Source of the DNA: a bacterium
GTDB lineage: Bacteria; Patescibacteriota; Saccharimonadia; Saccharimonadales; UBA4665
DNA length: 34,470 nt
NCBI GenBank assembly: GCA_021846095.1
Contig: JAJZCO010000002.1
Location: 1 to 34,470 of the forward strand
Reading direction: 5' to 3'
The notes beneath the pieces were generated by a model. The model was not told the origin of the DNA and did no database searches. It worked only from the letters and a program-made list of their open reading frames with translations. The position numbers and the translations under genes are program-made. Below, in pieces: positions 23,267 through 30,652 of the stretch (its first letter is position 1; each line of letters opens with the position of its first letter).

Positions 23267-23698
23267 ATGGCCAATAAAGTTATAAAGGCAAATTTAAAAA
23301 TGAAAATTAAAGCTGGGCAAGCTTCGGCTGCACCTCCAGTTGGATCAACGCTTGGTCAATATGGTGTTAATATGATGGATTTTATAAATCCATTTAATGA
23401 ACAAACTAAAGAGCTACAAGGTGCCTTGTTAACGGTCCATATTACAATTTTTGAAGATCGTTCAATGCAATTCAGAGTTGTTGGTTCGCCAACAGATGAT
23501 TTAATCAGAGCAAAATTAGGTATTGAAAAAGGATCCGGAAAACCAAATAGTGAAAAGATTTCAAAAAAACTTTCGACCAGCGACTTGGAAGATATCGCTA
23601 AAACAAAAGCTAAAGACATGAATACTGACGACATAGAAGCAATTAAAAAAATGGTAGCCGGTACCGCTAGATCTATGGGTATATTGATCGATCAATAA
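23267..23698 (+). CDS. rplK: 50S ribosomal protein L11
   Basis: KIKAGQASAAPPVGSTLGQYGVNMMDF…GTARSMGI. Confidence 0.97.
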   Translation: MANKVIKANLKMKIKAGQASAAPPVGSTLGQYGVNMMDFINPFNEQTKELQGALLTVHITIFEDRSMQFRVVGSPTDDLIRAKLGIEKGSGKPNSEKISKKLSTSDLEDIAKTKAKDMNTDDIEAIKKMVAGTARSMGILIDQ

Positions 23699-23742
23699 TA
23701 TATAAATAAAACGTGGCAGACTAAATTTTGATTTAAGTCGTT

Positions 23743-24651
23743 ATGACCACTATAAGGAGTACTAATATGACCACGACAACAGAAAATGACGCTCAAATTA
23801 AAAGTAATTCAAAAGTAAGCGGTGTTACTGCTAAGGCCGGTAAAAGAAGCTCAAAGGCCATACAGGAAAAAGAAGTTAAAATCAGTAAGCAACTCCGAAA
23901 GTTAGAGAATGTATCTAAAGAAGCTGCTACATCTAAACCTGTAACTCCAATTACTCGTTCAGTTTTAGATAGAAAAGGTAAAAAATATAAAGATTCTTAT
24001 AAACTGATCGATCACAAAAAAACGTATCAACTAGAGGAAGCTATTAATCTTGCTAAAAAAACTTCTAAAACAAAATTTGATGCTACTATTGAACTTCACA
24101 TCGGCTTAAACGTCGATCCTAAACATGCTGATCAGAATATTCGAGATAACGTCGTATTGCCATTCGGGACTGGTCAAAAAATACGAGTAGCTGTTTTTAC
24201 TGATGATGAACAATCGGCCAAAACGGCTGGAGCTGACATAATCGGCAACGACAAACTATTAGCTGACATAGAAAAAGGTAAATTAGATTTCGATGTTTTA
24301 ATTACTAGCCCAGCTTTAATGCCTAGACTGTCTAAATATGCTCGTATTTTGGGTCCGAGAGGCTTAATGCCTAATCCTAAAAGTGGTAGTGTAGCAACTG
24401 ATATAGCTAAGGCTATTGCTGAGACTAAGTCTGGAAAAATTGAATATCGAGTAGATAGTTACGGCATAATTCATACCCGAATAGGCAAGGTTAGTTTTAA
24501 AGATCAAGATTTAATCAATAATTTTACAACTCTCATTACAAGTATAAAAAATAATAAACCTCAATCCGTTAAATCAAATTATTTGAAGTCCATTTACATT
24601 ACAAGTTCCATGGGCCCATCTATTAAACTAGATCTTCAATCGATAAATTAA
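23743..24651 (+). CDS. rplA: 50S ribosomal protein L1 with N-terminal extension (start may be ATG at 23767)
   Basis: RKGKKYKDSYKLIDHKKTYQLEEAINLAKK; VLPFGTGQKIRVAVF; RILGPRGLMPNPKSGSVATDI. AAGGAG precedes the ATG at 23767. Confidence 0.95.
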   Translation: MTTIRSTNMTTTTENDAQIKSNSKVSGVTAKAGKRSSKAIQEKEVKISKQLRKLENVSKEAATSKPVTPITRSVLDRKGKKYKDSYKLIDHKKTYQLEEAINLAKKTSKTKFDATIELHIGLNVDPKHADQNIRDNVVLPFGTGQKIRVAVFTDDEQSAKTAGADIIGNDKLLADIEKGKLDFDVLITSPALMPRLSKYARILGPRGLMPNPKSGSVATDIAKAIAETKSGKIEYRVDSYGIIHTRIGKVSFKDQDLINNFTTLITSIKNNKPQSVKSNYLKSIYITSSMGPSIKLDLQSIN

Positions 24652-24659
24652 ATCTTTTT

Positions 24660-26321
24660 TTATTTTACCTTCATTGATCGGACCAGCGCGTTCATAACTT
24701 TTACGAACCCAGTAATATTTCCATGGTAAGCTACATACCTATCTCTCCAGAGTGGGTCGTATTTAGCCTTGAACCGATATAAGCCAGAGAATGAATAAAA
24801 TCTATTTCCATTTGAATATGCAAAATTTAGTATATTATTTATTACGCTCTGATCATCATCATTTTTAAGACCAACTAAAGGACATAACCCTAGATTTAAG
24901 CTAGTGTAATTATTTGTCTTTAAATGGTCTATTAACTTAATCAATAAATAATCGTTAATATTGCTAATGTTGTCCTTACTATTCCTTAATAAATCGTAGG
25001 TAGCTTCATTTTTATCGAATTCAGCAGGAACAATATTCGAAAACGCTTGGATGGTATTAGCAGCATCTCGTATCACAAAAATTTGACACATATTTAAATA
25101 GTCTGTATCAAAGTATCCCATAGCGAATCCTCGTTCGCTACGGCCTGGTAGTTTTAGCCAATCGTCAGATATTTCTTTTAGTCTTTTAATAATAGCTGGA
25201 TGATGAGGTGGAATGAGAATTTCACTAATAAATCCTTGTTTTTCGAATTTAGTAATTATATTTCGAAAATATTTGTTTGATTTTACATTTAATACAAAAT
25301 TATCGATATCAACTACGGCTTCTTGACCTATTTTTTGTAATTTAAAATCTAAATTTTGATAAATCTTTTTATGATCATTTTTAATGTGAATGAAGGCTAC
25401 CGACCAATCATTAATAAAACAGATATTTTCAAAATCATGAATTAATTTATTAAATGTAGTACTTTTACCAATTGGATCTCCTAAACAAAGAGCTATTCCG
25501 CTAGTAACTTTATAGGCTAGAATGGAATTTTTAGCATCATTAATAAAATAGTGCTTGTCATTAGGCCATAATTTAAAATAATCTTCGCTATGGCAAGGGT
25601 AATTTTCCATCAAACTCATTAATTCCTGTTTCCGATGATTTTGATCAGATAATCTAGATTTCAAAGGTTGAAATAAGGCTAAAATTACGTAAACGATTGC
25701 TCCAATGCTTATTGTAGTAAGTGAATCCAAAAAGATCTTAGCCCGATTGGAATATGCTATCAAGGGATGGGTAGTTGTTAAATTAAATTGATCCAAAGTG
25801 TAGTGAAGTGATGTGAAAAATGATAATTCTTGATGAAAATCAGAGTTATCCATCAATAAGAAACCGGTTGTACCATAAATAATGGCAATAATAAGAACAG
25901 TTGATGCGATCACAATGCTAACTTTAAATCCCGATATATCACTCTTAACTTTATAGTATTGACGCCATGTTAAAAGCAAAATTATTATCAAAAGAGGTAT
26001 AAAAAAAGATTTTATTAATAACATAGGCAAAAGATTATGATTTATTGGTTTAGAGAAAATAATTCGAATCGATGAAGTCAGATAGATAACATACAATATA
26101 ATACTAGCGATTAAAGCAGTTTTTTTAACTCTCATTAATTGAATGCTCAAATAAACTAAACTAATTCCGATTAATACTGGTAAGGTTAGATAAAGTTTTG
26201 AAAAACTAAGTCCAGTATGAATATGAAAGTTAATCCTCAATGAATCACCCAAGAGTATTAATCCATTTAATGCCACCAATGAAGCAAGAAATTTAATTTT
26301 AAAATTATCAGATAATGTCAT
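24660..26321 (-). CDS. MprF-like membrane protein with DUF2156 (aminoacyl-PG transferase-like) domain
   Basis: Hydrophobic N-terminus; C-term DKHYFINDAKNSILAYKVTSGIALCLGDPIGK, AVVDIDNF, LPGRSERGFAMGYFD, LNLGLCPLVGL. Confidence 0.82.
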   Translation of the reverse strand: MTLSDNFKIKFLASLVALNGLILLGDSLRINFHIHTGLSFSKLYLTLPVLIGISLVYLSIQLMRVKKTALIASIILYVIYLTSSIRIIFSKPINHNLLPMLLIKSFFIPLLIIILLLTWRQYYKVKSDISGFKVSIVIASTVLIIAIIYGTTGFLLMDNSDFHQELSFFTSLHYTLDQFNLTTTHPLIAYSNRAKIFLDSLTTISIGAIVYVILALFQPLKSRLSDQNHRKQELMSLMENYPCHSEDYFKLWPNDKHYFINDAKNSILAYKVTSGIALCLGDPIGKSTTFNKLIHDFENICFINDWSVAFIHIKNDHKKIYQNLDFKLQKIGQEAVVDIDNFVLNVKSNKYFRNIITKFEKQGFISEILIPPHHPAIIKRLKEISDDWLKLPGRSERGFAMGYFDTDYLNMCQIFVIRDAANTIQAFSNIVPAEFDKNEATYDLLRNSKDNISNINDYLLIKLIDHLKTNNYTSLNLGLCPLVGLKNDDDQSVINNILNFAYSNGNRFYSFSGLYRFKAKYDPLWRDRYVAYHGNITGFVKVMNALVRSMKVK

Positions 26322-26468
26322 TTGTATTTAAAGTTATGGTTAACATTATATACTAACCTAAAAAATACTACAGTTCATAAAGCATAATAATTTTGCTTTT
26401 CAGGCATTTAAATTATTTACTTGCAAAAAATACCCGAGCTATATTAGACTTTATAAAAGGGAATAAGT

Positions 26469-27182
26469 ATGGGAGTTTACTCGAATTTACAAATAAATGA
26501 GGCTATTACAAGTGGGCATATAATTTGTCGGCCATACATAAACAAGCATGTTTCACATGCTAGTTTAGATGTTACTTTAGGTTATTATTACTATAGAATC
26601 GAAAAATTAAATGAAAGAACTATCTATAATCCGTTCGACAAAGAAGATGTAGAACGATATTTTGATGGACCATATAAGGCATTACCTCATTTAGAATGGT
26701 CCAACTTAAATGGATTTAAACCCTCAACCAATATTCCATTGGATCACCCAGTGATTAGTCTCAAGCCAAAAGAGCGAATCTTGGCTCATACTCATGAATT
26801 TTTTGGTATATTACCACCAGGAGCTTGTGAAGTTAAATCTCGGTCTAGTTGGGGTAGAAATGGAATTGCCGTTTGTTTTGATGCTGGTTGGGTAGATCCT
26901 GGGTATATCAACAGAATGACTTTAGAAATATATAACCTAAACGAATCAGAAACTGTGCTTTTACCTGTAGGTGAAAGAATAGCACAAATTGTTTTTCATG
27001 AGACTGGCGAAGTTAATGGTAGTTATGGATTAGGTCGTGACAATGGATTTAGTGGTAAATATCAACAAGGCGATAATTTAGATTTATTAATAAAAACTTG
27101 GTCTCCAGATAAAATGCTTCCTATGGCCTATAAAGACAGTCGAGCCTTACCGATACCTATCGATGGGTTATCCTATGACTGA
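26469..27182 (+). CDS. dcd: dCTP deaminase family (dCTP deaminase/dUTPase)
   Basis: HASLDVTLG, ACEVKSRSSWGRNGIAVCFDAGWVDPGYINRMTLEIYN, LLPVGERIAQIVF. Confidence 0.87.
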   Translation: MGVYSNLQINEAITSGHIICRPYINKHVSHASLDVTLGYYYYRIEKLNERTIYNPFDKEDVERYFDGPYKALPHLEWSNLNGFKPSTNIPLDHPVISLKPKERILAHTHEFFGILPPGACEVKSRSSWGRNGIAVCFDAGWVDPGYINRMTLEIYNLNESETVLLPVGERIAQIVFHETGEVNGSYGLGRDNGFSGKYQQGDNLDLLIKTWSPDKMLPMAYKDSRALPIPIDGLSYD

Positions 27183-29496
27183 TCATATTAATTCAAGAGG
27201 GAAATACATCGTTTTAGAAGGTCCTGAAGGAGTAGGTAAAACTACTCAAATACAAGTATTACATCAGCGATTATTGACAGAAGGTATTGCTGTAAAAACT
27301 TTTCGTGAACCTGATAGTCAAAGCGATTTAACTGCTCGAAGTATCAGACGGATGACTCAAGATCCTAACTACGAAATGAATACTAAAACTGAAGTTCTAC
27401 TTTATAACGCTGCTCGGGCACAATCGCTAGAAGTTATCAAAAAGAATATAGATCAAGGTATTAATTGTTTAGTTGATAGAAATTTTTTAACTACTCTAGC
27501 AATTCAATATTATGGACGTTCTGATATAACCGATTACGAATCAATCAATCAGATAATAAATTTTGCTATTAAAGGGATCGAGCCCGATTTATGTATTGTC
27601 CTAGATGCACCGGTCAATATACTTAAAGATCATCTTAAGAATCGTCATAACGGGGAGAGATTTGATAATTTAGATGAATCATTCTTAGAAAGAGTTCGAG
27701 CTGGTTATTTGTGGGAGGCTAATAAGCGCAATTTGCCAATTATTTTTGCGATCGGAGATATAGATAATATATCTCAACAAATTTGGCAAATGGTTGAACC
27801 AATACTGAATAACGCTAACAATCAAAAAACTAACAATAAATTTAGTTCATTAGCAATATCCGATACTTCTATCAAGTCAACTTTAAGTGAAGAAATAATA
27901 GAAAAAACACCGACATATATTAATAAAACAAAGACCGGACATAAAATTGTAACTGAAGACGGACTGACTTATTTAAAAAACTTAGTGACAAATACCACCG
28001 AAAACGTATACGCGTTTAAAGATAATGTTAGTTCGACTACAGTAGCAGCTTCTATGGCCCGATTAAGCCGCCGAGGCGATGATTTGAGAATGATTTTATT
28101 AGATGAATTCAGTGATGCTAACAATAAAGATGAGCTACTCCTAAAGAGAGTAATCAGCGCCTATGGAGATGATTCAGTTCAACAATTAGCTAATCTTCAT
28201 TTTGTAGTCGAAAATTCATCTAATTTGTTAAGTAAGAAATTAGAATGGGGGCGATTAGGAGCATACTTAGAACAATCTACTAGATATATATACTTTGATA
28301 AAAAAAACGCTAATGGAAAATACAAATATTTTGTTCCAAAAAACTTCAAGGCACCCATTAAAAAACAATACGTTGCAATAATGGACGAAATGTTTGAAAA
28401 TTATAGTTATGTTGTCGCAAAATTAGAAGAATATTTGATTCAAACCAGTAATGAACCAGAATCTAAAAGAGATAGAGCTTGGCAAAATGCCTTAAAGGCT
28501 CAAGCTTGCGACAGTGCTAGATCAATGTTACCAGTATCAACTCAATCGACTGTTGGAATATTTATGTCATCTCAAGCCGTCGAAAGTTTAATTATTCATC
28601 TATTAAGTGATCCTTTAGCCGAAGCAAAATATGTTGGCCAACAAATATTGACCGAAGCTAGAAAAGTTATGCCAGTCTTTTTAGAAAGAGTCGATTTACC
28701 CGATCGAGGTGGTGCAATAACAGCCTATCGAGCTACTACCGCTCAAAATATTAAGCAACTCACTAATCAGTTAATTGGTAATAAGTTTCAAGATACAGAT
28801 TTTCAGGATGTTAATTTGGTTGATTATTATCCCAAAAATGAATTAGATATTATCCCGGATATATTATATGAAAATTCTTCTTTGAGCTTAAAGGAATTGA
28901 AACAAATTACATCTACCTGGGATTATGACAAAAAAATCAATGTAATGAAAACTTATTTTGGCGATCGATTAAACAGGCGACAAAAACCAGGTCGAGCTTT
29001 AGAAAAAATAATCTATAATTGGGATCTCATGTGTGATTACGGTATATTTAGAGATTTACAAAGACATAGGATTGTTAATGATTTAGAATGGCAATCACTG
29101 TCACCACGATATGGCTTCGACACTCCAGATTTAATTGATCGAGCTAATTTAACTGATAAATATGAACGAAATTTTGCTATTAGTTTAAAATTACACAGTC
29201 TATTAATTAAAAACGGCTACGAATTAGAATCTCAATATTCAACACTACTGGGCCATAAAATGAGATTTAAAGTGACATATAATGCTCGGGAAGCCTTTCA
29301 TTTACATGAACTAAGAACTAATCCTCAAGGACATTCTAATTACAGAAAATTAGTTTTATCAATGCATGATAAAGTTAATTCTGTCCATCCAATCATTGCT
29401 AGTGGTATGAAATTTATTAATAAAAACGAAGATCCAGCCTTGAGTCGATTAGCTGCTGAGAGATATGCCCAATTTAAATTAGCCAATTTATCCTAA
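27163..29496 (+). CDS. Fusion: thymidylate kinase plus tandem ThyX-like (FAD-dependent thymidylate synthase) domains; start may be ATG at 27175
   Basis: N-term YIVLEGPEGVGKTTQIQVLHQRLL…FREPDS…CLVDRNFLTTLAIQYYG (Tmk); then YGDDSVQQLANLHFVVENSS…WGRLGAYLEQSTRY and a second unit DLQRHRIVNDLEWQSLSPRY. Confidence 0.87.
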   Translation: MGYPMTDHINSRGKYIVLEGPEGVGKTTQIQVLHQRLLTEGIAVKTFREPDSQSDLTARSIRRMTQDPNYEMNTKTEVLLYNAARAQSLEVIKKNIDQGINCLVDRNFLTTLAIQYYGRSDITDYESINQIINFAIKGIEPDLCIVLDAPVNILKDHLKNRHNGERFDNLDESFLERVRAGYLWEANKRNLPIIFAIGDIDNISQQIWQMVEPILNNANNQKTNNKFSSLAISDTSIKSTLSEEIIEKTPTYINKTKTGHKIVTEDGLTYLKNLVTNTTENVYAFKDNVSSTTVAASMARLSRRGDDLRMILLDEFSDANNKDELLLKRVISAYGDDSVQQLANLHFVVENSSNLLSKKLEWGRLGAYLEQSTRYIYFDKKNANGKYKYFVPKNFKAPIKKQYVAIMDEMFENYSYVVAKLEEYLIQTSNEPESKRDRAWQNALKAQACDSARSMLPVSTQSTVGIFMSSQAVESLIIHLLSDPLAEAKYVGQQILTEARKVMPVFLERVDLPDRGGAITAYRATTAQNIKQLTNQLIGNKFQDTDFQDVNLVDYYPKNELDIIPDILYENSSLSLKELKQITSTWDYDKKINVMKTYFGDRLNRRQKPGRALEKIIYNWDLMCDYGIFRDLQRHRIVNDLEWQSLSPRYGFDTPDLIDRANLTDKYERNFAISLKLHSLLIKNGYELESQYSTLLGHKMRFKVTYNAREAFHLHELRTNPQGHSNYRKLVLSMHDKVNSVHPIIASGMKFINKNEDPALSRLAAERYAQFKLANLS

Positions 29497-29515
29497 AAAT
29501 ACTATCTATAGTCAT

Positions 29516-29544
29516 TTGACATATAATAATAAAACGGATAAAAT
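29516..29544 (+). promoter_or_regulatory. Sigma70-type promoter for rplJL (TTGACA-N17-TAAAAT)
   Basis: Perfect -35, 17-bp spacer, TAAAAT. Confidence 0.72.
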
Positions 29545-29551
29545 AAATGAT

Positions 29552-29668
29552 AAGTTGCCAAAGACAGCGACGGTTTTGTAACTTAATAATGTCGCCAAGG
29601 TAAAACTCTTATTATCTATTCTATAGATTAAGCGGCAACCTAATAATAGGTTTTAGGTCGATCCTATT
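29552..29668 (+). promoter_or_regulatory. Ribosomal protein L10 leader-type autoregulatory element
   Basis: GTTGCCAAAGACAGCGACGG…CTTAATAATGTCGCCAAGGT…AGCGGCAACC: closing stem GTTGCC/GGCAAC, inner GCGAC/GTCGC; then AATAGG/CCTATT-TTT as a possible attenuator. Confidence 0.8.
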
Positions 29669-29694
29669 TTAAAAATACTAAACGGAAGATCATT

Positions 29695-30231
29695 ATGGCT
29701 TTAACTAAAGAAAAAAAAATCGCAATAGTTCAAGAAGTTACTGATTTAATTAGTCAGTCTAAAATGAGTGTTGTAGTTAATTATCAAGGAACATCCGTTA
29801 AACAATTACAAAATATTAGACAGCGTTGTAAGGCTGACGGTACTTCAATCAAAATAATTAAAAATCGACTGTTTATTCAATCACTTAAAAGCTTAAAGAC
29901 TTTTGAGAATAGTGATACATCGAATCTTAATAAAATGTTGCTATACGTATTTAATGATTCCGATGAGATTTTACCAGCTAAAGTTATCGCCGAGGCTGCT
30001 AAACAAATCGAAACATTAAAATTTGTTGGAGCATATTTACCAAATGGACAATTTATTGACGCTAATGAAGTTAGTACAATTGCAGTGTTACCGTCTAAAG
30101 AACAACTACGAGGAATACTGGTTGGAACAATATCGGCTCCGCTCACTAAATTTGTCAATGTTTTAAATGGTAGTTTACTTGGAGTTATAAACGTTTTGAA
30201 TGCTAGAGCAAGTAAGTTAGAAATTAAATAA
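29695..30231 (+). CDS. rplJ: 50S ribosomal protein L10
   Basis: MALTKEKKIAIVQEVTDLISQSKMSVVVNYQGTSVKQLQNIRQRCKADGTSIKIIKNRLF; precedes rplL. Confidence 0.96.
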   Translation: MALTKEKKIAIVQEVTDLISQSKMSVVVNYQGTSVKQLQNIRQRCKADGTSIKIIKNRLFIQSLKSLKTFENSDTSNLNKMLLYVFNDSDEILPAKVIAEAAKQIETLKFVGAYLPNGQFIDANEVSTIAVLPSKEQLRGILVGTISAPLTKFVNVLNGSLLGVINVLNARASKLEIK

Positions 30232-30247
30232 TTTTAAAGGAGTAATT

Positions 30248-30652
30248 ATGTCAGAAAAAAATAATATCGAAATACCTAAAGAATTCGCAAATATCGTCAA
30301 AGAATTAGATAAAATGTCCGCATTAGAAATTAGTAAATTTGTTCATTTCTTAGAAGAATATTGGGATGTTACTGCTGCTGCACCAGTAATGGCCGTTGCA
30401 GGTCCAGTATCTGGAGAAGCTGCTGAAGAAAAAGCTGAAAAAAGTGAATATGATGTCGTATTAAAAGACGCAGGTAGTCAAAAAGTTGCAGCCATAAAAG
30501 CTGTTAAAGAAATTACTGGATTAGGTCTAGGAGAAGCTAAAGCATTAGTAGATGGTGCACCTAAAACTATTCTTGAAAAGGCTAAAAAAGAAGACGCAGA
30601 AAAAGCAAAGAAATTATTGGATGACGCTGGTGCTACATCAGAATTAGTCTAA
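30248..30652 (+). CDS. rplL: 50S ribosomal protein L7/L12
   Basis: EKSEYDVVLKDAGSQKVAAIKAVKEITGLGLGEAKALVDGAPKTILEKAKKEDAEKAKKLLDDAGA. Confidence 0.98.
   Translation: MSEKNNIEIPKEFANIVKELDKMSALEISKFVHFLEEYWDVTAAAPVMAVAGPVSGEAAEEKAEKSEYDVVLKDAGSQKVAAIKAVKEITGLGLGEAKALVDGAPKTILEKAKKEDAEKAKKLLDDAGATSELV

Follow-up and report, generated by a model that had tools for sequence, protein, structure and literature searches.

A thymidylate kinase joined to a double ThyX with apparently divided catalytic residues, encoded beside dcd in a Saccharimonadales bacterium

A probable dTTP-precursor operon with a fused synthase and kinase

The window (the whole stretch of DNA that was analysed, 34,470 nucleotides of a bacterium of the order Saccharimonadales) contains a dCTP deaminase gene, dcd, overlapping a single ORF that encodes a thymidylate kinase (Tmk) followed by two dissimilar ThyX folds (together the double ThyX, or dThyX). 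The explanation that best accounts for the evidence as a whole, and that is considered probable, is that the fusion and dcd together make up a short operon for dTTP precursors, that one chain carries two consecutive activities, and that its double ThyX is equivalent to half of a ThyX tetramer. Dcd would supply either dUTP or, without that intermediate, dUMP; the double ThyX at the C-terminus would methylate dUMP to dTMP with FAD and methylene-tetrahydrofolate; and the kinase at the N-terminus of that chain would convert dTMP to dTDP. Catalysis, dimeric assembly, the number of active sites, bifunctionality of Dcd and substrate channelling are all predicted properties of this system.

The dcd gene (26469..27182, plus strand) encodes 237 amino acids with an AGWVDPGY motif and a catalytic-type glutamate in the sequence TLE, and the fusion ORF (27163..29496, plus strand), identified by ORF calling, Pfam and NCBIfam, encodes 777 amino acids; a sequence-only reading had noticed the overlapping pair at 26469-29496, and its domain order of Dcd, Tmk, ThyX and ThyX-like was borne out by curated profiles and fold matches. 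With a start at 27163, the two ORFs overlap by 20 bp. The true start of the fusion is likely to be the second ATG, at 27175, which gives a protein of 773 amino acids, because the corresponding in-frame start, with an overlap of 8 bp from the start of the fusion to the stop of dcd (ATGACTGA, 27175..27182, plus strand), is present in 35 of 43 relatives with the same type of kinase (TmkA, described below). The two genes and an MprF-like gene (24660-26321, minus strand) separate rplK-rplA from rplJ-rplL (window 23267-30652), and immediately 3' of the fusion there is an Rfam L10 leader (29540-29675). Elsewhere in the window, two tRNA genes in a cluster of four (2196-2277 and 2329-2410) have equal covariance scores of 63.6 bits and are possibly a recent tandem duplication.

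Dcd matches DCD (PF22769) with 109.3 bits (cut-off 27) and TIGR02274 with 89.6 bits, just under the cut-off of 92.8, and its best solved relative is 4xjc (E 2.4e-14). Its AGWVDPGY motif is as in the bifunctional enzymes 4xjc, 2qxx and 1ogh, and no match to the dUTPase family besides Dcd was found in the window's genome (646 kb, 87% complete); direct conversion of dCTP to dUMP by Dcd fits this motif and this gene content. The only Thy1 and Tmk matches in the same 87% complete genome are in the fusion ORF, and neither ThyA nor thymidine kinase was found there, so the fusion is probably the sole source of dTMP and dTDP, in a genome of which about an eighth is missing. Thymidine kinase matches in sister genomes were marginal frames of about 360 amino acids and were taken as P-loop noise.

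Kinase domain and linker

The dTMP kinase domain (residues 12-215; 27196..27807, plus strand) matches Thymidylate_kin (PF02223) over residues 18-207 with 89.6 bits (cut-off 27) and the dTMP kinase equivalog TIGR00041 with 99.6 bits (cut-off 83.25). Its match in the PDB by phmmer is 2pbr (E 1.4e-22), its best solved-structure match by Foldseek is likewise a Tmk (3hjn, target TM 0.86), and kinases were the sole matches when the whole fusion protein was compared with the PDB by phmmer. The complete-looking Tmk domain with Walker A motif GPEGVGKTT noticed by the sequence-only reading is confirmed by these two profiles: the motif occupies residues G20-T28 (27220..27246, plus strand), with Lys26 kept in 30 of the 31 fused rows of alignment A7, and the DR motif (D105-R106) and LID arginines (R161, R166) are also present. 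The kinase is followed by a polar, probably disordered linker (residues 216-255; 27808..27927, plus strand), predicted earlier at about 27810-27930 and seen in the AlphaFold model as pLDDT below 50 over residues 220-247 (27820-27903). The model, which had been suggested as a check, comprises the kinase domain, this segment, which is modelled with very low confidence, and two folds of mixed alpha/beta type. The pTM of the whole chain is 0.67, against 0.85 for the double ThyX alone, which means that the prediction does not fix the position of the kinase.

The relatives have two types of kinase in the fused position: most have the Aquifex-like type of the window (TmkA), and others have a type like that of Mycobacterium tuberculosis (TmkB), for which the best PDB matches are 4unp and 1g3u. 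The two types are about 25% identical, and both are N-terminal to the same double ThyX. In a tree of the double ThyX the Tmk types are interleaved, with 11 changes for three labels; an AU test did not reject a single clade for TmkB (p 0.33), for which reason repeated swapping of the kinase is not claimed, and the tree data are compatible with few swaps or with one. Dcd, too, falls into two deeply separated types, and each of the four possible pairings of Dcd and Tmk types exists. In one single-contig genome (G125; L169:1334-4935), dcd, a separate tmk and a TmkA-dThyX fusion stand in a row, placing two kinases in one operon.

These results bear on whether the fusion does anything besides coupling the expression of two ordinary enzymes, with neither channelling nor shared assembly, a reading for which the case is evenly balanced. 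It would account for the disordered linker, for the lower pTM of the whole chain, and for outgroups in which tmk and the double ThyX are operon neighbours; the occurrence of two unrelated kinase types in the same fused position is a weak hint, to the contrary, that the joining itself matters.

Two ThyX halves with complementary residues

Thy1 (PF02511) matches the fusion with 104 bits (cut-off 24.8) in two stretches, one (28036-28677, 61.4 bits) within the N-half of the double ThyX (residues 262-525; 27946..28737, plus strand) and one (28954-29391, 43.2 bits) within the C-half (residues 549-777; 28807..29493, plus strand). The match to the thyX equivalog TIGR02170 is 55.4 bits, below the cut-off of 87.9, which indicates a member of the superfamily that is not a standard equivalog. 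Among ThyX proteins, that of M. tuberculosis (Mtb) is the best match of the N-half profile (A3), and ThyX entries are among the matches of the C-half profile (A4). The model of the double ThyX (mean pLDDT 89.6) has ThyX entries as its best Foldseek matches (target TM about 0.6-0.74, E about 1e-6 to 1e-5). Direct profile comparison of the N-half with the C-half gave no match, so the halves are very divergent, and their kinship rests on the Thy1 and fold matches. Both C-terminal parts being ThyX folds, the prospect that the C-terminal region might not be ThyX was not borne out; the earlier description of a ThyX with a ThyX-like extension was right about the two folds, but the residues described below point to complementary halves instead of an enzyme plus an appendage.

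Residue conservation was counted over 45 homologues, including stand-alone double ThyX proteins of about 540 amino acids from Actinomycetota and Chloroflexota. The N-half contains the dUMP and lid residues E370-Q-S372-T-R374-Y375 (28270..28287, plus strand; E, Q, S, R and Y each in 45/45), of which S372, R374 and Y375 align with S105-x-R107-Y108 of Mtb ThyX, and D450-x-x-R453 (28510..28521, plus strand; 45/45), equivalent by profile alignment to E144 and R147 of Thermotoga maritima ThyX. The C-half contains the flavin-binding R634-H635-R636 (29062..29070, plus strand; 45/45, 45/45 and 44/45), aligned with R78-H79-R80 of T. maritima, and N707-A-R709 to R718 (29281..29316, plus strand; both arginines in 45/45), equivalent to N163, R165 and R174. 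Among the 45 homologues, RHR (with R636 in 44), R709 and R718 are invariant in the C-half only, and SxRY and DxxR in the N-half only. W362-G363 of the N-half replace the first two residues of RHR, and Q471 and L480 replace the two arginines. In the C-half there is an insertion, RHR is followed by a [T/S]PRY whose conservation is loose (R649 in 38/45, Y650 in 26/45), and Gln691 occupies its T. maritima R147 position in 35/45. The contiguous ThyX motif RHRx(7)SxR is absent from either fold, the [T/S]PRY of the C-half being three residues further on.

ThyX is a homotetramer in which each active site is built from three subunits: in Mtb ThyX, RHR(95-97) and Arg199 come from subunit A, Ser71 and Arg190 from B, and Arg87, Ser105, Arg107 and Tyr108 from C (PMC6514825). 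Profile alignments to solved ThyX map Mtb RHR, Arg190 and Arg199 to R634-H635-R636, R709 and R718, so that the C-half receives all of the subunit A residues and Arg190 of B, and the N-half receives three of the four subunit C residues, a pattern expected if C-halves act as A and B and N-halves as C and D. The exceptions are Ser71 of B, which is S338 in the N-half and an invariant arginine (R611) in the C-half; Arg87, which is Asn354 in the N-half; and R364 of the N-half, which retains the third arginine of RHR. On the evidence of these alignments, the two halves appear to be complementary and to share one catalytic site. Two chains would pair to form the equivalent of a ThyX tetramer, with the two C-halves holding FAD via RHR, R709 and R718 and the N-halves giving the residues that bind dUMP and form the lid (S372, R374, Y375 and R453). 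From this we infer two composite active sites per dimer, compared to four per ThyX tetramer, both halves being needed for each.

Alternatively, the C-half alone could be a working ThyX, its TPRY replacing SxRY, and the N-half a structural remnant with no catalytic part, a situation common among duplicated enzymes. The C-half does retain RHR, NxR, R718 and, loosely, [T/S]PRY. This arrangement is nevertheless unlikely because a relic would not keep exactly the catalytic residues that are missing from its partner: E370, Q371, S372, R374, Y375, D450 and R453 of the N-half are invariant across phyla, whereas their C-half equivalents vary, as at Gln691.

Distribution of the fusion and of double ThyX

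The search covered the window's genome and those of 59 relatives; 56 of these 60 genomes gave a match, in a few cases cut by a contig end, and 41 encode kinase and double ThyX in one frame beside dcd. In a scan of named genomes, the carriers of the fusion were Saccharibacteria/Saccharimonadia, represented by many assemblies made independently of one another; almost every complete saccharibacterial locus had it, and dcd lay upstream at almost every locus whose contig extends to that point. The earlier reading had allowed that homologues might always be separate ORFs and the fusion an assembly join, and tmk and double ThyX are indeed separate neighbours at some loci (L045, L094, L099, L170-L172). 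Nonetheless, a join in assembly or annotation of separate tmk and thyX genes is effectively ruled out by the recurrence of the uninterrupted ORF in those 41 genomes and the named assemblies, by the similar linker and conserved dcd overlap among relatives, and by the fusion in the single-contig genome G125.

Across the phylum at large, most double ThyX proteins are encoded by an ORF of their own, of about 550 amino acids and often adjoining tmk, and the fused form was seen only in the window's order. Stand-alone double ThyX proteins of about 540 amino acids occur in Actinomycetota (mostly Acidimicrobiia), one Dehalococcoidia MAG and Rokuibacteriota MAGs, and one genome scan contained at least 554 related stretches. 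More distant double ThyX proteins, mostly of about 430-550 amino acids and 20-38% identical to that of the window, are encoded by 22 viral contigs of up to 529 kb (L147-L168), one of which (L168) also has a dCTP deaminase-like ORF. In genome G059, a ThyX-C-half-like protein of 333 amino acids lacking the catalytic residues (L046:2615-3616, minus strand) adjoins an intact stand-alone double ThyX. Fused ORFs of 700-1850 amino acids in Actinomycetota (L103, L105, L126, L127) were set aside because they look like over-extended high-GC frames; none of the four matched the kinase profile, and a Pfam scan of three of the N-terminal parts of such ORFs found no domain. A literature search, with most subscription journals outside its coverage, found no description of a Tmk-ThyX fusion or a double ThyX; as far as the searched papers show, this architecture of a kinase plus a double ThyX with divided catalytic residues seems undescribed, its component families being known.

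Degenerate copies in sister genomes

In the window's genus, the ORFs of G001, G003 and G005 and a C-terminal piece in G004 have lost the P-loop, RHR, SxRY and the substrate arginines. The degenerate ORF adjoins an intact dcd in G001, G003 and G005, the G004 piece not spanning dcd, and in G003-G005 it is 658-660 amino acids long with no internal stop. In G006 the kinase P-loop is kept and the ThyX residues are gone, and an intact double ThyX is encoded as an ORF of its own (L038); comparable losses occur in G010, G034, G037 and G052. In all, degenerate full-length ORFs at nine loci (L033-L037, L039-L041, L135), from at least three lineages, lie beside dcd where the contig spans it. N559-E560 and Q644 are retained in the dead copies, as is G697-H698 apart from one or two exceptions. 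Comparing G003 with G005 over 658 codons (dS 1.03, dN 0.178), omega is 0.17, so the degenerate ORF is under purifying selection and not in decay; omega is 0.041 for dcd in the same pair, and 0.044 for the C-terminal part in G003 compared with G004.

Another synthase is present in most genomes with a degenerate copy: ThyA in G010, G034 and G037, a ThyX of 310 amino acids in G001 and G052, and the stand-alone double ThyX in G006. No thymidylate synthase of any kind was detected in G003-G005. This different, single ThyX of about 310 amino acids has the motif NTHRVFSRNSASSRA and adjoins tmk or dcd in G001, G002, G052 and G039 (loci include L134:1005-1946, minus strand; L135:2913-3836, plus strand; L136:1893-2828, minus strand).

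Retention of catalytically dead versions, three of them in genomes with no detectable thymidylate synthase, is what would be seen if the double ThyX methylated a substrate other than dUMP or were a regulator, dTMP coming from a host; this is very unlikely, since the window protein retains every catalytic residue and since in six genomes (G001, G006, G010, G034, G037, G052) the degeneration of ThyX goes together with the presence of a second synthase, which would be predicted were the intact form the synthase. If Tmk-dThyX is a synthase and kinase, a tentative extension, favoured less than not, is that it has a second, non-catalytic task tied to Dcd, as scaffold or regulator, and that in lineages gaining another source of thymidylate it became a pseudoenzyme that is nonetheless retained. 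In G010 and G034 the kinase appears to be active still, which by itself could explain retention there, and any role of the degenerate copies with Dcd is a guess.

Comparison with known systems

If the proposed assembly is true, a homotetrameric thymidylate synthase with four sites has been reduced to a pair of complementary halves and offers a clear example from nature of subunits that became specialised once duplicated; the design is common yet apparently unrecognised in the literature searched. The joining of an essential synthase to the next kinase in host-dependent bacteria with tiny genomes makes shared assembly and channelling directly testable, and the dead yet selected copies pose a testable question as to the role of such a protein without catalysis.

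The Dcd of the window shares its family, the AG[WF]xDxG[FY] motif and the catalytic-type glutamate with dCTP deaminase and bifunctional dCTP deaminase-dUTPase (4xjc; Methanocaldococcus jannaschii 1ogh; M. tuberculosis 2qxx), and differs by an insert of about 45 residues between residues 50 and 95. The kinase shares a complete domain with Walker A and DR motifs with bacterial dTMP kinase (Aquifex aeolicus aq_969, TIGR00041; elsewhere TMPK of the M. tuberculosis type), but is joined N-terminally to a thymidylate synthase, a position in which two unrelated Tmk types are found. Compared to ThyX (T. maritima TM0449, M. tuberculosis; PF02511/TIGR02170), both halves are homologous and have the same fold, and the flavin-side and dUMP-side catalytic residues are the same when both halves are taken together; but ThyX is one chain of about 220-250 amino acids, four identical copies of which form four sites, whereas the window's protein links two unlike halves in one chain, each with only part of the catalytic residues. 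Thermus thermophilus Thy1 (PDB 6j61) is also a ThyX with extra C-terminal sequence and is among the Foldseek matches, but neither the N-half nor the C-half sequence profile matched it at E<=1. The DHFR-TS fusion of protists and plants, like Tmk-dThyX, unites a pair of successive steps of thymidylate metabolism in a single chain; its synthase, however, is the unrelated ThyA and its partner, DHFR, is the upstream cofactor step, whereas the partner in Tmk-dThyX is the kinase of the next step.
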